Shown here: positions 1-19,068 of the stretch, one piece after another
Layout of the letters: each line of letters opens with the position of its first letter
Numbering within the stretch: the first letter of the stretch is position 1
Assembly (NCBI RefSeq): GCF_030161595.1
Contig: NZ_BSUM01000001.1
Location: 3,534,001-3,598,000, forward strand
Source of the DNA: Litorihabitans aurantiacus
GTDB lineage: Bacteria > Actinomycetota > Actinomycetes > Actinomycetales > Beutenbergiaceae
Length of the DNA stretch: 64,000 bases
Reading direction: 5' to 3'
Notes under the pieces: generated by a model
Seen by the model: the letters and a program-made list of their open reading frames with translations, nothing else
Databases searched by the model: none
What the model was told of the DNA's origin: nothing
Translations under genes and position numbers: made by a program

Positions 1-344
1 CGGGTGGAGACGGTCAGGTCGGTGGCGCCCTCGAGCGCGCCGCGCGGCAGGGTGACGTAACCGCCGTCAGCCCCTCCGGGGAGCCGGAGGGCCCGGCCCT
101 CGTCGGAGTCGACGACCGACGTCGAGCCGGAGATCGTGCCGTCGAGCTCGTTGCCGGAGCTGTCGGGGACGGTGGTTCCCTCGATGTCGTCCATCGAGTA
201 GTGCAGGTGTGCCTGGGGTGGTGCGTCCTGGTCGGGTGCCGCGTGGGCGATCCCCGCCATCCCGGCCACCCCGGTCAGCGCGAGGGCCGAGGCGAGGGTG
301 AACGAGGTGGTGCGGGCGCCACGCCTGGGGCGTGATCCGGTCAT
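1..344 (-). CDS. Secreted protein with LamG/concanavalin-like domain (5' part only)
   Basis: The reading frame starts with ATG at 344 and runs off the left edge of the window, leaving about 114 residues. Residues 1-36 form a Sec signal peptide: arginine-rich start, hydrophobic core, and AHA|AP-type cleavage site. After it comes a stretch with HLHYSMDD, DSSGNELDGTISG and RALRLPGG...YVTLPRG, the typical opening of a LamG/concanavalin-like carbohydrate-binding domain. It lies 124 bases downstream of the GH127 gene in the same direction, so it is probably the last visible gene of the arabinoside operon. It may be an extracellular arabinan-active hydrolase that feeds the transporter, but no catalytic domain is in view, so the enzyme class is unknown. 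Confidence 0.75.
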   Translation of the reverse strand, partial: MTGSRPRRGARTTSFTLASALALTGVAGMAGIAHAAPDQDAPPQAHLHYSMDDIEGTTVPDSSGNELDGTISGSTSVVDSDEGRALRLPGGADGGYVTLPRGALEGATDLTVST

Positions 345-8999: not shown

Positions 9000-9412
9000 C
9001 CGGCGAGCGTAGATCGTGACGGTCCGCGGCGACCGGTGCGGCTCGTATGACGGAAGTCGCCTTCCTGCTGCTCGGGGATGCGGAGCGTGGCGACGGCCGA
9101 GCGGGCGGGGGCCTCGTCCCGTGAGAGATCGTTCATCACTAAACGATCTCGAAAACTCCGAGACGGATCGAAATGGTTTGAAATACGCAAGTTTGCCGCT
9201 CGTTCACGTTTGGCGGGTGGGCGAAAGTTAGCGAAATGTTATTTGCGCTTATCTATACGCGCTGCACAGACGTCCGTAGTGTCTCGTCGAGACGTCGCCA
9301 CCACTGGAGACGTTCGCACCCGCCCCGGCTCCCGCCGGTGCGCGAGGGGGCGCAGTCGGGGGGCCGTCCACGGTCGTGCCGGCACTGTGACCGATGGACC
9401 GTGGAGGCGGCA
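9000..9412. other. Divergent intergenic region with AT-rich promoter segment
   Basis: These 413 bases between the acyltransferase and adhesin genes hold no credible gene. The stretch about 9130-9262 is clearly AT-richer than its surroundings and probably carries the promoters of one or both genes; I cannot fix the boxes. It includes the hairpin listed separately and a 6-bp inverted repeat GTCTCG-T-CGAGAC at 9281-9293. The long leader (about 150 bases) ahead of the adhesin start could be structured. Confidence 0.6.
9125..9150. repeat. Inverted repeat, 9-bp arms
   Basis: GAGATCGTT (9125-9133) and AACGATCTC (9142-9150) are perfect complements separated by eight bases. It has no U-tract, so it reads more like a regulator site than a terminator. 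It lies in the AT-rich divergent region. Confidence 0.55.
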
Positions 9413-12400
9413 ATGAGGACGGATCGACGACGGCCGAACAGAGGCAGGCGTCTCGCCGCCAGGGCGGCGGCATGGGTGCTCGCGGGGTGCGTCGCCTTCG
9501 CCGGCAGCGCGGCACTCACCCCCGAGACCGCGGAGGCTGTCCCCGGCAACCCCGGAGTCCCGGGTGTGCCCACGGTGATCTATGCCGAGGACTTCGAGAA
9601 CGGCACAGGGGTCGTGAACCTCCCGAACTACACCTCGAGCACGGGCGTGACGTACACCGCTGCGCCGTACTGGCTGAACACGCTCGCGTGCAACGGCTTC
9701 ATCGTGGGGCCCACCACGCCGCGCCCCGGGGGCTACTGCAACGACGCGGGCGACTTCTCGAGCGTCCAGCTCAAGGCCCGGATGCTGGGTCTCCTGAACA
9801 GCCCGCAGAACTCCACCACCAACCGTGCACTGAGCACCAACACCAGCGGCGCCTCGGGCAACGCCCCGGCCAACGGCATCATGTTCGCCACCAGCGGTCA
9901 GGTCCCGCTGCCCAGCGCGACCGGCCGCTTCATCACGTTCTCCGTCGACGCTGCGGCGACGTCGTGCCAGGCCGCCCAGCCGCTGCTGCGGTTCTACCTG
10001 CGCAACGCCAACGGGACCGAGACGCCCGTCTCCACCGCTGCGATCAATCCGTGCGTCGGGCCGCGCTCGATGGCCTACCAGGGCGCGGTGACCAACCGGT
10101 ACGGTCGGTTCCCGGCCGACGCCTCCGTGCTGTTCAACGGGAGCTCGCTCGGGATCGTGCTGCGCAACGAGCAGACGAACCCCAACGGCAACGACGGCGC
10201 GGTCGACAACATCCGCGTGCTGGACGCGACGCCGCAGCTCGACAAGTCCTTCACCCCCGCCACCACCCCGGTCGGCACCACCTCCACGCTGACGCTCACG
10301 GTCACCAACACCAGCGACCTGGCGGCCAAGGCCGGCTGGGCCTTCACCGACAACCTCCCCGCCGGACTCGTCGTCGCACCCACACCCGCCCTCGGCGGCA
10401 CGTGCACGGCGACGCGAACGGCCACCCCGGGCGGGAGCGCGGTCGCCGTCACGAACGGCGTCCTCGCGGCGGGGCAGACCTCGTGCACCGTCACCGTCCA
10501 GGTGACGCACGCCCCGATCACCGCCGGGCAGAGCGCGCCCCTGACCTTCGAGAACTGCGCGGCGAACATCTCGGACGCCGTCGGGATCGACCTCCCCGGC
10601 TGCGCGAGCGTCTCCTTCGTCAGCAACCCGGGCATCTCGCTGGAGAAGTCCGCCAGCACCGACGAGATCGTCGCCGGCGCCCCGGTCACGTTCACCTTCG
10701 CCGCCACCAACACCGGCGACGTCCCGCTCAGCGGCGTCACCGTCAGCGAGGAGCAGTTCACGGGTGCCGGCACGCTCTCGAGCCTGACCTGCACGCCGAC
10801 GCAGCCCGCGACGCTCGCGCCGGGCGGTGTCCTGACCTGCCAGGCGACCTACACCTTCACCCAGGGCGACGTCGACACCGGGACGCTCTACAACCAGGCG
10901 TCCGTCGTCGGGACCGACCCGTTCGGGACCACGGTGACCGACCTGGACGACGTCGTCCTGCCCTCGGACGCCGTCGCCGCCTACACGCTGGTGAAGCAGG
11001 CCGTGGTCACGGACGTGAACGACAACGAGCTCACCGACCTGGGTGACGAGATCGCGTACTCCTTCCTCGTCACCAACACCGGGACCACGACCCTGACCGA
11101 CGTGAGCGTCTCCGACCCGACGCTGGCCGACCTCGGCATCACGATCTCGTGCGACCCGGCCCCGCTGGCGCCGGGGACGTCGGTGACGTGCACCGCCGAC
11201 GAGACCTACGTCCTCACCCAGGCCGATGTCGACAACGGTGAGGTCGTCAACACCGCGACCGCCTCCGCCGTGCCGCCGCCCGGCGTCCCCGCACCCGAGG
11301 AGCCCACCGACACCGTCGAGATCCCCGTCGACCGGACGGTCGCGTACACGCTGGTGAAGTCGGCCGAGGTCACGGACGTGAACGACAACGACCTGACCGA
11401 CGTGGGCGACGAGATCGCGTACTCCTTCCTGGTGACCAACACCGGGACCACGACCCTGAGCGACGTGAGCGTCTCCGACCCCACCCTGGCCGAGGCCGGT
11501 ATCGCGATCACCTGCGACCCGACCACGCTGGCACCGGGCGAGTTCGTCACCTGCACCGCCGACGAGCCCTACGTCGTCACGCAGGCCGACGTCGACAACG
11601 GCGAGATCGTCAACACCGCCACCGCGACCGCCACCCCGCCCCCGGGGGTCGACCCGCCCACGCCTCCGACGAGCACCGTGGAGACCCCCACCGACGGCAC
11701 CCCCGGCCTCACGCTGGTCAAGACGGTGAACGCCACCGAGGTCGTCCTGGACCAGGAGGTCACCTACACCTTCGTCGCGACCAACACCGGGACGCTGACG
11801 CTGGACGACGTCACCGTCACCGTCACCGAGGAGTCCTTCACCGGCACGGGCGAGCTCTCCGCGCTCGACTGCGCGCCGCTGCAGCCGGCCACGCTCGCGC
11901 CGGGCGAGGACCTGACGTGCACCGCGACGTACGTGATCACGCAGGCCGACGTCGACGCCGGGACGGTGGACAACACCGCCTCGGCCTCCGGGACCGACCC
12001 CTTCGGCACCACCGTGGGCGACGAGGACGACGCGACCCTGCCCGCCGACCGCGCGCCGTAGCTGAGCATCGTGAAGACCTCCGACACCGAGCTGCTCACG
12101 GAGGCCGGTCAGGAGATCACGTACTCCTTCGAGGTGACCAACACGGGCAACGTGACGATCACCGACGCCGCACCGGTCGAGGCCGCGTTCTCCGGAACCG
12201 GTGAGCTGAGCGGGTTCACGCCGGCGACGGCGACGCTCGCCCCGGGCGACGTCGTCACCTTCACCGCCACCTACACCGCCACGCAGGCGGACGTCGACGC
12301 GGGCGAGCTGACCAACACGGCCACCGCGACGGGTACCCCGCCGCCGGGCACGGAGCTGCCGCCGGTCCCGCCGAGCGACGTCGACATCCCCGGCGAGCGG

Positions 12401-14619
12401 ACCCCCGGTCTGCTCGTCACCAAGACCTCCGACGCCGAGCTGCTGACCACAGCGGGCCAGGAGATCACCTACACCTTCGCCGTCCTGAACACGGGCAACG
12501 TGACGATCACCGACGCCGTGCCGGTCGAGACCGCGTTCTCGGGCTCGGGGAGCTGAGCTCCTTCACGCCCGAGTCGGCCACCATCACACCCGGCGCGACG
12601 GCGACGTTCACCGCGACGTACATCGCCACGCAGGCGGATGTCGATGCGGGTGAGCTGACGAACGCCGCGACGGCGACGGGTACCCCGCCGCCGGGCACGG
12701 AGCTGCCGCCGGTGCCGCCGAGCGACGTCGACATCCCTGGTGAGCGCACCCCCGGCCTGTCGGTGGTGAAGTCGGCGTCGCTGGCCGAGGGCGAGGAGTA
12801 CCTGGCCGGGACGGAGGTGACCTACACGTTCGTGGTCACCAACACCGGCAACGTCACGATCACGGACGCGGCCCCGGTCGAGACCGCGTTCTCCGGCACT
12901 GGTGAGCTGGGTCCGATCACGCCGGTGAGCGTGGCGACGCTGGCGCCGGGTGAGCAGGCGGTGTTCACCGCGGTCTACACGGTCACGCAGGCGGATGTGG
13001 ACGCGGGTGAGATCACCAACGCGGGCACGGCCGAGGGCACGCCGCCCCCGGGCACGGAGCTGCCGCCGGTCCCGCCCAGCGAGGTCACGATCCCGGGCGA
13101 CCGGTCCCCGGCGCTGGAGATCCTCAAGTCCTCCGACGTGGAGCTGCTGACCGTGGCCGGTCAGGAGATCACCTACTCCTTCGCGGTCACGAACACCGGC
13201 ACGGTCACGATCACGGACGCTGCTCCGGTCGAGGTGGACTTCTCCGGGACGGGTGAGCTGGGCGAGATCACTCCCGCCTCGGCGACTCTGGTGCCGGGCC
13301 AGACGGTCACGTTCACCGCGTCCTACACCGCCACGCAGGCGGACGTGGACGCCGGTGTCCTGACCAACACCGCCACCGCCACCGGCACCCCGCCGGAAGG
13401 CACCGAGCTGCCGCCGGTCCCGCCGAGCGACGTCGACATCCCCGGCGAGCGCGCGCCGTCGCTCGAGGTGGTGAAGTCCGCCTCGCTCACCGGCGAGGAG
13501 GACTTCGTCGCGGGCGCCGAGGTGACCTACACCTTCGTGGTGACCAACACGGGCAACGTCACGATCACCGACGCCGCCCCGGTCGAGACCGCGTTCTCCG
13601 GCACGGGCGAGCTGGGTGACCTCACCCCGGAGGCGGCCACGCTGCTCCCGGGCGAGCAGGCGATCTTCACCGCCCTCTACACCGTCACCCAGGCGGACGT
13701 GGACGCGGGAGAGGTGACCAACGCCGCCTCGGCCGACGGCACCCCGCCCCCGGGCACGGAGCTGCCGCCGGTCCCGCCGAGCGAGGTCACGATCCCGGGT
13801 GCTCCGGCTCCGGCGCTCGAGGTCGTCAAGACCTCCGACACCGCGCTGCTCACCACCGCCGGCCAGGAGGTCACCTACACCTTCGTGGTGACCAACACGG
13901 GCAACGTCACGATCACCGACGCCGCGCCGGTCGAGACCGCGTTCTCGGGCACGGGCGAGCTGGGCGAGATCACCCCCGCCGCAGCGACCCTGATCCCGGG
14001 CCAGTCCGCCACCTTCACCGCGACCTACACCGCCACCCAGGCGGACGTGGACGCGAGCGGGCTGACGAACGCGGCCACGGCCACGGGCACCCCGCCCCCG
14101 GGTACCGAGCTCCCGCCGGTCCCGTCGAGCGAGGTCACCATCCCCGCCGGGTGGACCCTGGGCCTGGAGGTCGTGAAGTCCTCGGACACCACGACCGTCA
14201 CGCGCGCGGGTCAGGTGGTCACGTACACGTTCGTGGTCACCAACACGGGCAACGTCTCGCTCACCGACGTCGCACCGGTGGAGACCGCGTTCTCCGGCAG
14301 CGGCGACCTCGGTCCGCTGAGCCCGGCGCCGGTCACGCTGGCCCCGGGGGAGTCGGCCACCTTCACCGCGGCCTACACGGTCACGCGTGAGGATCTGCGC
14401 ACGCGCCAGCTGACCAACACCGCGGCGGCGACCGGCACCACCCCCGGCAACAACGCCCTCCCGGCGGAGCCCTCCTCGGTGTCGATCCCGGTCGTGCCGC
14501 CGACGGGCCCGTCGCTGCCCGTCACCGGTGCCTCGGCGGCGGGGCTCGGCGTCGCCGCCCTGGTGCTCCTCGGCGCGGGTGCGGTGCTGATGACGACCCG
14601 ACGCCGTCGGGCCGAGTGA
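9413..14619 (+). CDS. Giant LPxTG-anchored DUF11-repeat surface adhesin (nonsense codon and frameshift)
   Basis: About 1735 residues if read through. The ATG at 9413 follows GTGGAGGCGG. Residues 1-43 are a signal peptide; residues about 50-275 form a beta-rich N-terminal domain (IYAEDFENGTGVVNLPNYTS ... GNDGAVDNIRVLD), and then about twelve DUF11/TIGR01451-type repeats of 110-120 residues, each with L(V/E)VVK(S/T), VTYTFVVTNTGNVTITDAAP, FTATYTATQADVDAG and NTATATGTPPPGTELPPVP. The end is LPVTG (14516-14530) plus a hydrophobic helix and TTRRRRAE, a sortase sorting signal. Two lesions: TAG at 12059-12061 where sibling repeats have serine, and one missing G in the run 12547-12550. Both flanks remain in good repeat sequence. 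A terminator follows. Likely a cell-wall stalk or adhesin; the ligand is unknown. Confidence 0.85.
10236..14500 (+). repeat. Twelve tandem DUF11 coding repeats
   Basis: Repeat units of about 350 bp begin near 10236, 10633, 10975, 11340, 11700, 12053, 12400, 12750, 13105, 13450, 13800 and 14155. Units from 12053 on are nearly identical over long stretches at the DNA level (for example the segment coding TGTPPPGTELPPVP), while the first five are more divergent. That gradient fits recent amplification of the C-terminal part and makes the locus prone to recombination and to assembly collapse. Confidence 0.85.
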
Positions 14620-14718: not shown

Positions 14719-16113
14719 GTGCCCGACACCCCGCCCGTCACCCGCGCCACCACCCTCGCCCTCGCGATCGCCCAGGCGGCCGACCCGACCACGGTCCGCG
14801 AGGTCGAGCACCCCGCCTTCGCCGGGGACGCCGAGGCCGGCGGGTTCGCCGCCCGCTACGACCAGACCCTCCTGGTCTGCGGGGTCGACGGCGGGCGCAG
14901 CTGGTCGGTCGACCCCTGCACCGACGAGGGGCGCCGGGCCGCGATCGAGGCGTACTGGCGCGTGGCCCGACGGCGCCGCGAGCGCGAGCGCACCGCGATC
15001 GACCCCGCCTCGCTCCCCGCGACGACGCGCGCCGCCGTCGACGTCGTCGTCGCCGGTCTGCGCAGCGCGGCCGACCTGCACCCGGTGCCGCTCGACGAGG
15101 CCGGCGAGCCGGTCGACGTCGCCCGCGCGGACGCCACCCTCGTGCTGCTGCGGCGCGCGATGCGACCCACGGCCGCGGTCGCTGCCGGGGCGTCGCGCGA
15201 TGGCGGGGCGTCAACCACCCGGACGCCCGACGGCGAGCGACCCACCGCCCGCCGCCCCACGCAGGCGCAGGTGCTGCGCGCCGTCGCCCGCCACGAGGTC
15301 CTGGCGCAGGAGCCGACCTCGACCGCCCACCCGTGCCCCCTGTGCGCGACGCCCGCGCTCGGCGGGCCGCGCTACGACCGGGCGGTCTGCGACGACTGCC
15401 ACGAGCGCCCCCGGTGCGTGCACGGCCGCGCCGTCGGCGGCGCGAACACGGGCCTCGGCGGCGGGTTCGTCGCGCACCACCGCGACGACGGATCCGCGTG
15501 CGAGACCACGCAGACCCACCGCGTGTGGATCGACGGGCACCCCTGCCACATGGACGAGGCGCGCTTCGGCGGCGTCGTGGTCGAGGCGCTCCTGCCGCCC
15601 GCGATCACCCTCGTGCGCGGCGACATCACGCGGGAGGCGGTCGACGCCGTCGTGAACGCCGCGAACACCGCGATGCGCGGGGGCGGGGGTGTCGACGGCG
15701 CGATCCACCGCGCGGGCGGACCCGCCGTGCTCGCCGACTGTATCGCGCGCTTCCCGCGCGGGCTCGCCGTCGGGGACGCGGGATGGACGACGGCGGGCGA
15801 CCTCCCCGCGCACCGCGTGATCCACACCGTGGGGCCGAGCTGGGCCGCCGGCGAGCGCGACCGGGCGCTGCTGGTCTCCTGCTACCGGCGCAGCCTCGAG
15901 GTCGCCGACGAGATCGGGTCGCGCACCCTCGCGTTCCCGCTGATCAGCGCGGGCGTGTACGCGTGGCCGCTGGCGGACGCGGCGGCTGCCGCCGTCGAGA
16001 CCCTGCGCGCCACACCGTCGCGCGTGCGCGAGGTGCGGATCGTGGCGTTCTCGGACGAGGCGGCGGTCGCCGTCGGGCGCGCCCTCGGGGCGGGTGGCGC
16101 AGCGGAGGGCTGA
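14719..16113 (+). CDS. Macro-domain protein with a zinc-ribbon-like central part
   Basis: A 464-residue protein from GTG 14719. Three parts are visible. Residues 1-150 are a helical N-terminal domain of no family I recognise (EVEHPAFAGDAEAGGFAARY ... EAYWRVARRRRERERTAI). Residues about 200-290 hold paired cysteines (HPCPLC ... VCDDCHERPRC) followed by GGANTGLGGGFVAHH and WIDGHPCHMDEARFGG, a zinc-binding-like module. Residues about 295-460 form a macro domain with the ADP-ribose loop NAANTAMRGGGGVDGAI and a second loop LISAGVYAWP. This pattern is that of MacroD-type O-acetyl-ADP-ribose/ADP-ribosyl hydrolases. An ATG at 14711 is in another frame. It is followed by the iteron array and the ATPase gene. 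Confidence 0.85.
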   Translation: MPDTPPVTRATTLALAIAQAADPTTVREVEHPAFAGDAEAGGFAARYDQTLLVCGVDGGRSWSVDPCTDEGRRAAIEAYWRVARRRRERERTAIDPASLPATTRAAVDVVVAGLRSAADLHPVPLDEAGEPVDVARADATLVLLRRAMRPTAAVAAGASRDGGASTTRTPDGERPTARRPTQAQVLRAVARHEVLAQEPTSTAHPCPLCATPALGGPRYDRAVCDDCHERPRCVHGRAVGGANTGLGGGFVAHHRDDGSACETTQTHRVWIDGHPCHMDEARFGGVVVEALLPPAITLVRGDITREAVDAVVNAANTAMRGGGGVDGAIHRAGGPAVLADCIARFPRGLAVGDAGWTTAGDLPAHRVIHTVGPSWAAGERDRALLVSCYRRSLEVADEIGSRTLAFPLISAGVYAWPLADAAAAAVETLRATPSRVREVRIVAFSDEAAVAVGRALGAGGAAEG

Positions 16114-16138
16114 GGGGCTCACGCGGACAAGGACGATC

Positions 16139-16230
16139 TGCAAGGTGCGGCACGACGAGCATGCACAGTGCGGGATACATGTGGTGCAGGCTGCGGGATA
16201 GAACCAGTGCAGAATGCGGTACGGTCGCGT
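16139..16230 (+). repeat. Four 23-bp direct repeats (iterons) at the ATPase gene start
   Basis: Units start at 16139, 16162, 16185 and 16208, exactly 23 bp apart. Each opens with TGCA, three variable bases, then TGCGG and an A two bases on (consensus TGCANNNTGCGGNA); the remaining nine bases vary. The fourth unit contains the proposed ATG at 16214. About two helical turns between units places the conserved boxes on roughly one face of the DNA, as for cooperative protein binding. Confidence 0.8.
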
Positions 16231-17479
16231 GGTGAAGTACCGGAGACGCGAGGCCGACGCGCGCATCGCCCGTGCCCTGGGCGTCATGGGTGGGGTCGTT
16301 CTCGAGGGCCCCCGCGCGTGCGGCAAGACGTCGACCGGGTCCCACCACGCTCGGAGCGCTGTGCGGCTCGACGAGTCGAGGTCGGTGGCGGAGCTCGCCG
16401 AGCTCGATCCCACCGGCCTGCTCGAGGGTGAGACGCCCCGGCTGATCGACGAGTGGCAGCTGACGCCGTCGCTCTGGAACGTGATCCGGCACGAGGTGGA
16501 CCGCCGGCAGGCACCGGGGCAGTTCATCCTGTCCGGCTCGGCGACGCCCACGGACGACGTCCGCAGGCACTCGGGCGCCGGGCGGTTCGCCCGGATCAGG
16601 ATGCGACCGATGTCGATCCACGAGCGGGGCCGGTCGACGGCCGCGGTGAGTCTCGCCGCGCTCGGCGACGAGCCGCTGACCGGAGTCCGCAGCGACCTCA
16701 CCTACCAGGACCTCGCGGTCGAGGCGGTGCGCGGTGGCTGGCCGGCGCTGATCGACGCGTCCGCCTCCGACGCTCGGGAGTTCACCGCCTCGTACCTGCA
16801 GGACCTCATGGCCACCGATCTGCGCCTGGCGACCGGCGTGCGGCACGACCCCGTCCGGGTGGGGCGGCTGCTCGCCAGCCTCGCCCGCACCATCGGGACG
16901 GAGGTCACGACGGCGAGTCTCGCGGCCGACGTCGCCGCGGACGGTGCTGCCGTCGATCGGGACACGGTGCGGCGCTACCTCGACGCTCTCACCCGTGTGT
17001 TCGTCGTCGACGAGCAGCCCGCGTGGGCGGTGAGCCTCCGCTCGCGGACCCGGCTCCGGCAGCAGCCGAAGATGCACCTCGCCGACCCGTCGCTCGCCTG
17101 CGCGGCGCTGAGGCTGACCCCCGCACGACTGGCCGGCGATCCGGAGTACTTCGGGCAGGTCTTCGAGAGCATGGCCGTGGCGGATCTGCGGGCGTCGATC
17201 GAGTCCTGGGGTGGCCAGGTGCACCACTACCGGGACTCGACGGGGCTGGAGGTCGACGCGATCCTCGAGCTCGACGACGGCGGGTGGGCGGCCTGCGAGG
17301 TGAAGCTCGGTGCCTCACGCGTCGAGGCGGCGGAGGCGGCGCTCCTCAGGCTGCGTGAACGGGTCGACGTCGGACGCACCGGTCGCCCCCGGTTCCTCGC
17401 GGTGATCACGGGCACCGAGCACGGCTACACCCTCCCGTCGGGGGTGCACGTCCTACCCCTGGGGGCTCTGGCCCCCTGA
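16214..17479 (+). CDS. AAA-family ATPase with C-terminal DUF4143 domain
   Basis: A 421-residue AAA_14/DUF4143 protein. Residues about 20-40 carry a P-loop GPRACGKTSTG, then PRLIDEWQ as Walker B and FILSGSATP as the sensor-1 segment. The C-terminal half (from about 165, LTYQDLAVEAVRGGWPALI, through GQVFESMAVADLRA, HYRDSTGLEVDAILE and CEVKLG) is the DUF4143 region, which resembles a restriction-endonuclease-like fold with E-x-D ... E-V-K. Members are common, sporadically distributed and of unproven function. ATG 16214 lies inside the fourth iteron; a GTG at 16232 is an alternative start. Likely autoregulated through the iterons. Confidence 0.88.
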   Translation: MRYGRVVKYRRREADARIARALGVMGGVVLEGPRACGKTSTGSHHARSAVRLDESRSVAELAELDPTGLLEGETPRLIDEWQLTPSLWNVIRHEVDRRQAPGQFILSGSATPTDDVRRHSGAGRFARIRMRPMSIHERGRSTAAVSLAALGDEPLTGVRSDLTYQDLAVEAVRGGWPALIDASASDAREFTASYLQDLMATDLRLATGVRHDPVRVGRLLASLARTIGTEVTTASLAADVAADGAAVDRDTVRRYLDALTRVFVVDEQPAWAVSLRSRTRLRQQPKMHLADPSLACAALRLTPARLAGDPEYFGQVFESMAVADLRASIESWGGQVHHYRDSTGLEVDAILELDDGGWAACEVKLGASRVEAAEAALLRLRERVDVGRTGRPRFLAVITGTEHGYTLPSGVHVLPLGALAP

Positions 17480-17485
17480 CCGGGC

Positions 17486-18050: not shown

Positions 18051-18109
18051 CGTTCGGTGCGCACGAATCGGGTCTTCGCGGGCGCTGACGACCCGATTCG
18101 TGCGCAGCG
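18051..18109 (+). repeat. 59-bp palindromic repeat element, copy 1
   Basis: Perfect 17-bp arms TGCGCACGAATCGGGTC (18058-18074) and its complement (18090-18106) enclose a 15-base loop. With the flanks CGTTCGG and GCG the unit aligns end to end with the reverse complement of copy 2 at 19010-19068. It stands between the divergent genes at 18010 and 18172. Confidence 0.8.
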
Positions 18110-19009: not shown

Positions 19010-19068
19010 CGCTGCGCACGAATCGGGCCATCGACGCCCCTGAAGGCCGCATTCGTGCGCACCGAACG
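19010..19068 (-). repeat. 59-bp palindromic repeat element, copy 2 (inverted)
   Basis: Arms TGCGCACGAATCGGGCC (19013-19029) and GGCCGCATTCGTGCGCA (19045-19061) are complementary except for two positions. Read on the minus strand, the unit matches copy 1 over its whole length, including the outer CGTTCGG, so the two copies are inverted relative to each other. Confidence 0.8.

Follow-up and report, generated by a model that had tools for sequence, protein, structure and literature searches.

A 23-bp direct-repeat array of conserved period and variable core in front of genes for AAA_14/DUF4143 ATPases

Replication iterons are direct repeats of about 17-23 bp that are bound cooperatively by an initiator and often overlap the rep promoter, and in the centromere-promoter arrays of plasmid partition loci the repeats serve as operator and as assembly site. 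In the RptR system three direct repeats, two of them over the -10 box, are bound by a protein, encoded just downstream, that acts as repressor of a locus in a phage-defence island; RptR is a dedicated 9-kDa repressor, and its 9-bp repeats have a fixed TAGCTA palindrome (PMC12255303).

Here we describe a direct-repeat array in front of an ATPase gene of Litorihabitans aurantiacus, in a 64,000-nt stretch of DNA (the window). The protein matches the type catalogued as PDC-S01, in which an ATPase domain is joined to the PD-(D/E)-X-K superfamily and which is ranked fourth among the most common defences across prokaryotes, still as a candidate, with validation pending for most PDCs (PMC12988326). 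A gene of Thermus with both AAA 14 and DUF4143 is listed among those changed by plasmid DNA (PMC4406477), and COG1373 among the transferred genes of gut bacteria (PMC10782964). No description of an array paired with a DUF4143 ATPase was found among the papers listed in searches of the open-access PMC literature.

The array and the start of the ATPase gene

The original prediction proposed four units exactly 23 bp apart, and a pattern search of the window and the genome confirmed them: TGCANNNTGCGGNA matches exactly at 16139, 16162, 16185 and 16208, all on the + strand. No fifth match occurs in the whole window, even at one mismatch; since about three chance matches are expected at that tolerance, the count alone is unremarkable, and it is the exactness together with the spacing that is unusual. 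A looser pair pattern (TGCANNNTGC twice, 23 bp apart) occurs at three places genome-wide, all within the array, against none for a reversed control, and this uniqueness, with the conservation of the period in relatives described below, led us to reject a chance origin. Single units outside the array number four in the genome versus 11 in total for a control pattern; we attribute them to chance, and a regulon of scattered units was rejected because the genome holds no excess over the control. The array lies near 3.55 Mb of contig C1, in a genome of 3.85 Mb.

16139..16161, + strand: array unit 1, core TGCAAGGTGCGGCA
16162..16184, + strand: array unit 2, core TGCACAGTGCGGGA
16185..16207, + strand: array unit 3, core TGCAGGCTGCGGGA
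16208..16230, + strand: array unit 4, core TGCAGAATGCGGTA, overlapping the predicted promoter
16220..16225, + strand: predicted -10 box TACGGT, 6 nt before GTG 16232, from TANNNT conservation in relatives
16232..17479, + strand: AAA_14-wHTH-DUF4143 ATPase gene, likeliest start GTG, from Pfam, PADLOC and relatives' N termini

Where does the gene begin? The reading frame as called by program opens at ATG 16214, within unit 4 and in frame with GTG 16232, with no Shine-Dalgarno sequence evident by eye; in close relatives the protein starts with M-x-Y where GTG 16232 lies in the window. Judged from these sequences, GTG 16232, one base past the array, is most likely the start, rather than ATG 16214. 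The family originally proposed for the protein, AAA_14/DUF4143, was borne out by Pfam matches (below), whereas the placement of its start codon inside unit 4 gave way to the likelier GTG.

Of 139 distinct regions upstream of the gene, the window's included, 83 have a TANNNT hexamer 6 nt (in 70) or 7 nt (in 13) ahead of the start codon, over a background of about two per position at 30-59 nt upstream in the same 139 regions; it is missing at this distance from 56 starts. Sequences resembling a Shine-Dalgarno precede 6 of the 86 starts with TANNNT 5-9 nt away, versus 35 of the 53 other starts. TANNNT without a Shine-Dalgarno is the pattern of leaderless promoters, as in actinobacterial leaderless genes. 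Unit 4 is predicted to cover the -10 box of such a promoter and to end one base before the start. An RNA-level role for the repeats is unlikely at leaderless starts, because there the array sits upstream of the predicted transcription start; the remaining starts could still have one.

Elsewhere in the window, three consecutive + strand reading frames (9236-12061, 12071-12556 and 12712-14619) share similar repeat sequences, the last ending in an LPVTG-type anchor, and by eye the three seem to be pieces of a single long repeat protein, separated by breaks or by errors of assembly. A dispersed hairpin at 18059-18105 (arm GCGCACGAATCGGGTC at 18059-18074, complement at 18090-18105) gave 18 BLAST matches at ten places in the genome, two of these in the window, the second near 19014-19068.

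Conservation of the period and joint absence of array and gene

Relatives came from a scan of genome contigs (14 loci), from 394 genomes of the class, of which 92 had a match at E <= 1e-10, and from 396 genomes of the order, of which 63 had one at E <= 1e-80. A subset of all matches was read, 151 loci in all (14 + 30 + 27 + 80 fetched regions), and seven were dropped because the gene was truncated or the upstream sequence too short. The 144 that were kept span about 30-100% identity and include the window itself, one pair of duplicates (L011/L101) and numerous close relatives.

Over lags of 12-60 bp, the strongest self-match upstream of the gene lay at 23 in 114 relatives and at 46 in 20, that is, in 134 of 144; the original prediction had named a lack of conservation in front of orthologues as its refutation, and the array comes through that comparison. 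The same lags were best in 6 of 144 coding, 3 of 143 far-upstream and 0 of 65 downstream control regions. Another lag was best in ten relatives, two of them by a tie at 27 matches, and a smaller run gave lag 23 or 46 in 78 of 83 loci.

The proposed core did not prove general: TGCANNNTGCGG is present upstream in three of the 144, and a 23-spaced pair of it in the window only. Subfamilies carry different cores at the same period, for example TGCAAACTGCACTA, TTGCAAAAACGGGTATAG, AATTGACGACT, CTGCAAACAGCCGGCTC and TTTATGTATGTAGGGTGTCTGCA. The architecture, meaning period and position, thus appears to be conserved and the core sequence not, each core being apparently private. Among the arrays listed the number of units runs from two to at least ten, and the near-identical 23-bp units of L152 (at least ten) and L136 (at least seven) seem to exceed what an operator would need. 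In a Propionibacteriaceae MAG (L018), a broken ATPase gene is still preceded by 23-bp repeats.

Array and gene are also jointly absent from one genome of the genus, and appear to form a cassette of a single gene:

16114..17480, + strand: array and ATPase gene as a gain/loss cassette, missing as a block from G512; borders approximate

In G512, a genome of the same genus, the flanking genes stand side by side in DNA about 75% identical, the matches lying 51 bp apart; the array and the ATPase gene are missing together. The other same-genus genome, G499, matched in the upstream gene only at the level used and is uninformative. Borders were also sought in 21 locus pairs at least 88% identical in the DNA compared. 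Similarity starts 63-111 bp before the start codon, near the 5' end of the array, in nine pairs, all from one eight-locus group (around the gene, L062/L064 are 92.7% identical between -68 and +2, and L076/L079 96.7% between -63 and +24), and it reaches further upstream in the other 12, such as L013/L014 and L009/L010. These borders are weaker evidence for a cassette than the empty site in G512, because little downstream sequence is available for the eight-locus group and a number of borders lie within the array. The gene next upstream of the cassette, at 14719-16113, encodes a macro-domain protein extended by about 290 residues at its N terminus.

Could the repeats mark the ends of a transposable element, or its targets? 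A cassette present or absent as a block, and near-identical copies some of which lose similarity near its borders, might suggest as much. However, the downstream controls (0 of 65) show that the repeats do not stand at both ends, and neither a target duplication nor a terminal inverted repeat was seen by eye at the empty site, which makes this origin barely credible.

Among 26 plasmid, phage or viral relatives, 25 of them picked for variety from the listed matches and one an IMG/VR locus, a significant lag of 23 or 46 was found in nine (Ruminococcus, Bacteroides, Collinsella, Azotobacter, Sulfitobacter, Mycobacterium riyadhense, two gut phage records and the IMG/VR contig), a lag of 22 in four (two Agrobacterium, Marinobacter, Salipiger) and a weak lag in two (Sphingomonas, Ensifer). 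By the same lag test the array is absent in 11: three Thermus, Spirosoma, Runella, Aliarcobacter, Moraxella, Qingshengfaniella, Pseudomonas mendocina, Sphingobium and one gut phage record. Three further viral loci (L190, L191, L328) have 23-bp repeats by eye. Viral contig scans with protein queries returned at most one relative each among the matches listed, and L328 is the one relative, again among the matches listed, in 240 viral stretches fetched by two DNA patterns; neither figure is a count of viral copies.

In four of the 11 array-less loci, Spirosoma and Moraxella (both with 20-bp arms), Runella and one Thermus, an exploratory test found an inverted repeat ahead of the start codon that was significant (p 0.016-0.033, where 0.016 is the floor set by 60 shuffles). 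A fifth came near significance (p 0.066), and the other six array-less loci had no significant inverted repeat, as was the case for all ten array-bearing loci tested. Inverted repeats by the start codon (L095, L179, L183, L093) may represent a second type of operator.

The ATPase and the segment that co-varies with the core

The window's ATPase is a 415-aa member of the AAA_14/DUF4143 family (COG1373), with Pfam matches to PF13635 (109.6 bits, cut-off 28.1) and PF13173 (40.1 bits, cut-off 27), and a PF13635 search found it to be the one DUF4143 gene in the Litorihabitans genome (95% complete). In PADLOC it matches PDLC04790 (PDC-S01) over residues 2-413 at E 2.1e-74, a profile for which no curated cut-off is given. 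We take GPRACGKT to be its Walker A motif and DEWQ its Walker B motif. PHROGs gave no match for the five proteins searched.

16292..16636, + strand: AAA+ ATPase domain, residues ~21-135, from Pfam AAA_14, conserved residues and model
16832..17080, + strand: predicted winged helix-turn-helix, residues ~201-283, from the model; similarity here best predicts array-core similarity
17141..17461, + strand: putative PD-(D/E)XK-like C-terminal fold, from model secondary structure, conservation and the PDC-S01 description

What reads the array? We compared the similarity of cores from 140 loci with protein similarity region by region, the region borders being set by eye from the alignment. Among pairs 50-92% identical, residues 201-280 had a partial correlation of 0.425 with core similarity when the rest of the protein was controlled, and the rest of the protein, given 201-280, one of 0.186; among pairs 42-92% identical the two values were 0.246 and 0.142. 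Sliding windows without borders peak at the same place (best 80-residue window 216-295). None of 500 label permutations reached the observed value, nor did any of 300 conservation-matched column sets outside 201-280 (mean 0.093, maximum 0.261), with 0 of 300 in each of the two identity ranges, and dropping each of the eight largest clusters left the correlation at 0.32-0.45. Similarity of the array core thus appears to be best predicted by the ATPase's own winged-helix segment. Within genomes, 34 paralogue pairs had a mean core similarity of 0.29, the background level, and the most alike pair reached 0.69 with proteins 87% identical.

Some results count against self-reading. In a test of residue-by-base mutual information on 74 arrays phased by their -10, the winged helix was not enriched (15 of the top 100 pairs versus 20 expected); the pairs in the co-variation test are non-independent; and residues 136-200, the next-best region, also carry signal (0.278).

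An AlphaFold model was made after the co-variation test had pointed to residues 201-280. With 12 close relatives in the alignment its pLDDT was 42.7, and with five more, diverse sequences 91.6 (pTM 0.91). Residues 207-283 are modelled as a winged helix, with helices at 207-219, 227-234 and 243-255 followed by strands at 259-262 and 280-283. Among six proteins scanned for helix-turn-helix families, the Spirosoma homologue has an ArsR-type HTH_5 match above cut-off, inside the DUF4143 region, and the other five, the window's fragment included, have none (best for that fragment, a transposase HTH at E 0.05, below cut-off). In the C-terminal part D342, E356 and K358 are largely conserved in the relatives' alignment, and the modelled helix-strand order is, we assume, that of PD-(D/E)XK nucleases, so that the domain is putatively nuclease-like. 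A PDB sequence search returned no relative (single hit at E 0.59), and the best solved match in Foldseek was the Walker ATPase of Pyrococcus abyssi, 2qen (E 5.6e-6, TM 0.44 by query), followed by RuvB and Cdc6/Orc1, which suggests a general resemblance.

A different DNA-binding protein of the host might read the array instead, in keeping with the failure to detect residue-level co-variation with the ATPase. Against such a reader, subfamilies with different cores share the pitch, array and gene are jointly absent in G512, the core tracks the ATPase's winged helix more closely than its other regions, and copies of the unit elsewhere do not exceed chance. We regard it as highly improbable.

Proposed function of the array and comparison with known systems

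Because core and winged helix co-vary and the predicted promoter lies under the array, the data favour cooperative binding, with the array serving in autorepression or as a DNA substrate of the ATPase itself, as the original prediction suggested. In what we consider the best explanation, with a probability of roughly three in four, the ATPase binds its private array as an oligomer of fixed pitch and represses its own promoter. The winged helix would read each 23-bp unit, and neighbouring protomers would touch, so that the pitch is set by the protein and the bases read by the winged helix can drift. The row of protomers would cover the -10 box and the start site and repress the ATPase gene until ATP, or a phage or DNA signal, released it. 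Pitch and position would then be conserved because protein geometry and promoter are, with the core drifting along with the winged helix, and a self-controlled gene travelling alone would gain from bringing its own operator. From the overlap with the promoter we infer repression, although activation or a non-transcriptional role would give the same sequence pattern. The 10 of 144 relatives with another best lag, the 11 of 26 plasmid, phage or viral relatives that have no array and the two with a weak one, the 56 of 139 starts lacking the hexamer and the sparse helix-turn-helix matches count against this explanation.

The array might alternatively be chiefly a loading or sensing platform, comparable to replication iterons or parS, where the ATPase would assemble in order to act on DNA or to sense phage, the promoter overlap being secondary. 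The long arrays of L152 and L136, a fixed pitch that implies ordered oligomers, and the union of ATPase and nuclease-like domains in one protein matching a defence candidate all fit such a platform. In most relatives, however, the array keeps a fixed place relative to the predicted promoter and start codon, there is just one gene in the cassette, and a scan of four window proteins, the ATPase included, found no partition or replication family; we consider a platform unlikely as the main function.

There is a broader, more tentative idea, which we think doubtful but worth stating: that each DUF4143 ATPase gene of the PDC-S01 type is a self-addressed element of one gene, whose product combines a winged helix with a nuclease-like domain and assembles at a fixed 23-bp pitch on a private array. 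The array would be operator and assembly site at once, its occupancy would sense infection or foreign DNA, and the private addresses would prevent cross-regulation among several copies in one genome. A cis site of fixed pitch and position and private sequence is immediately usable as a DNA ligand for many of the family's members, with which binding, ATP control, oligomer geometry and regulation of PDC-S01-type ATPases become testable. The many matched pairs of winged helix and operator form a natural set for learning a DNA recognition code, and the array opens a way into one of the most common defence candidates still lacking an explanation.

How does the locus compare with described systems? 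Like iterons, the array consists of direct repeats of similar size overlapping the gene's own promoter, here a predicted one; unlike them, it lies on a chromosome-sized contig, in a single-gene cassette rather than an independent replicon, and the four proteins scanned gave no match to a rep family. The parS and parC arrangements differ in that the cassette has no second gene and one protein combines ATPase and DNA-binding domain. With PDC-S01 the window's ATPase shares its protein family, by the PDLC04790 match. From RptR the locus differs in its presumed reader, an ATPase with a nuclease-like domain, in its 23-bp pitch and in a core that varies by subfamily, and in place of a separate small repressor gene the cassette has one gene for a 415-aa ATPase; what it would share with RptR is a set of repeats overlapping the -10 box of the reader's own gene, here that of the predicted promoter.
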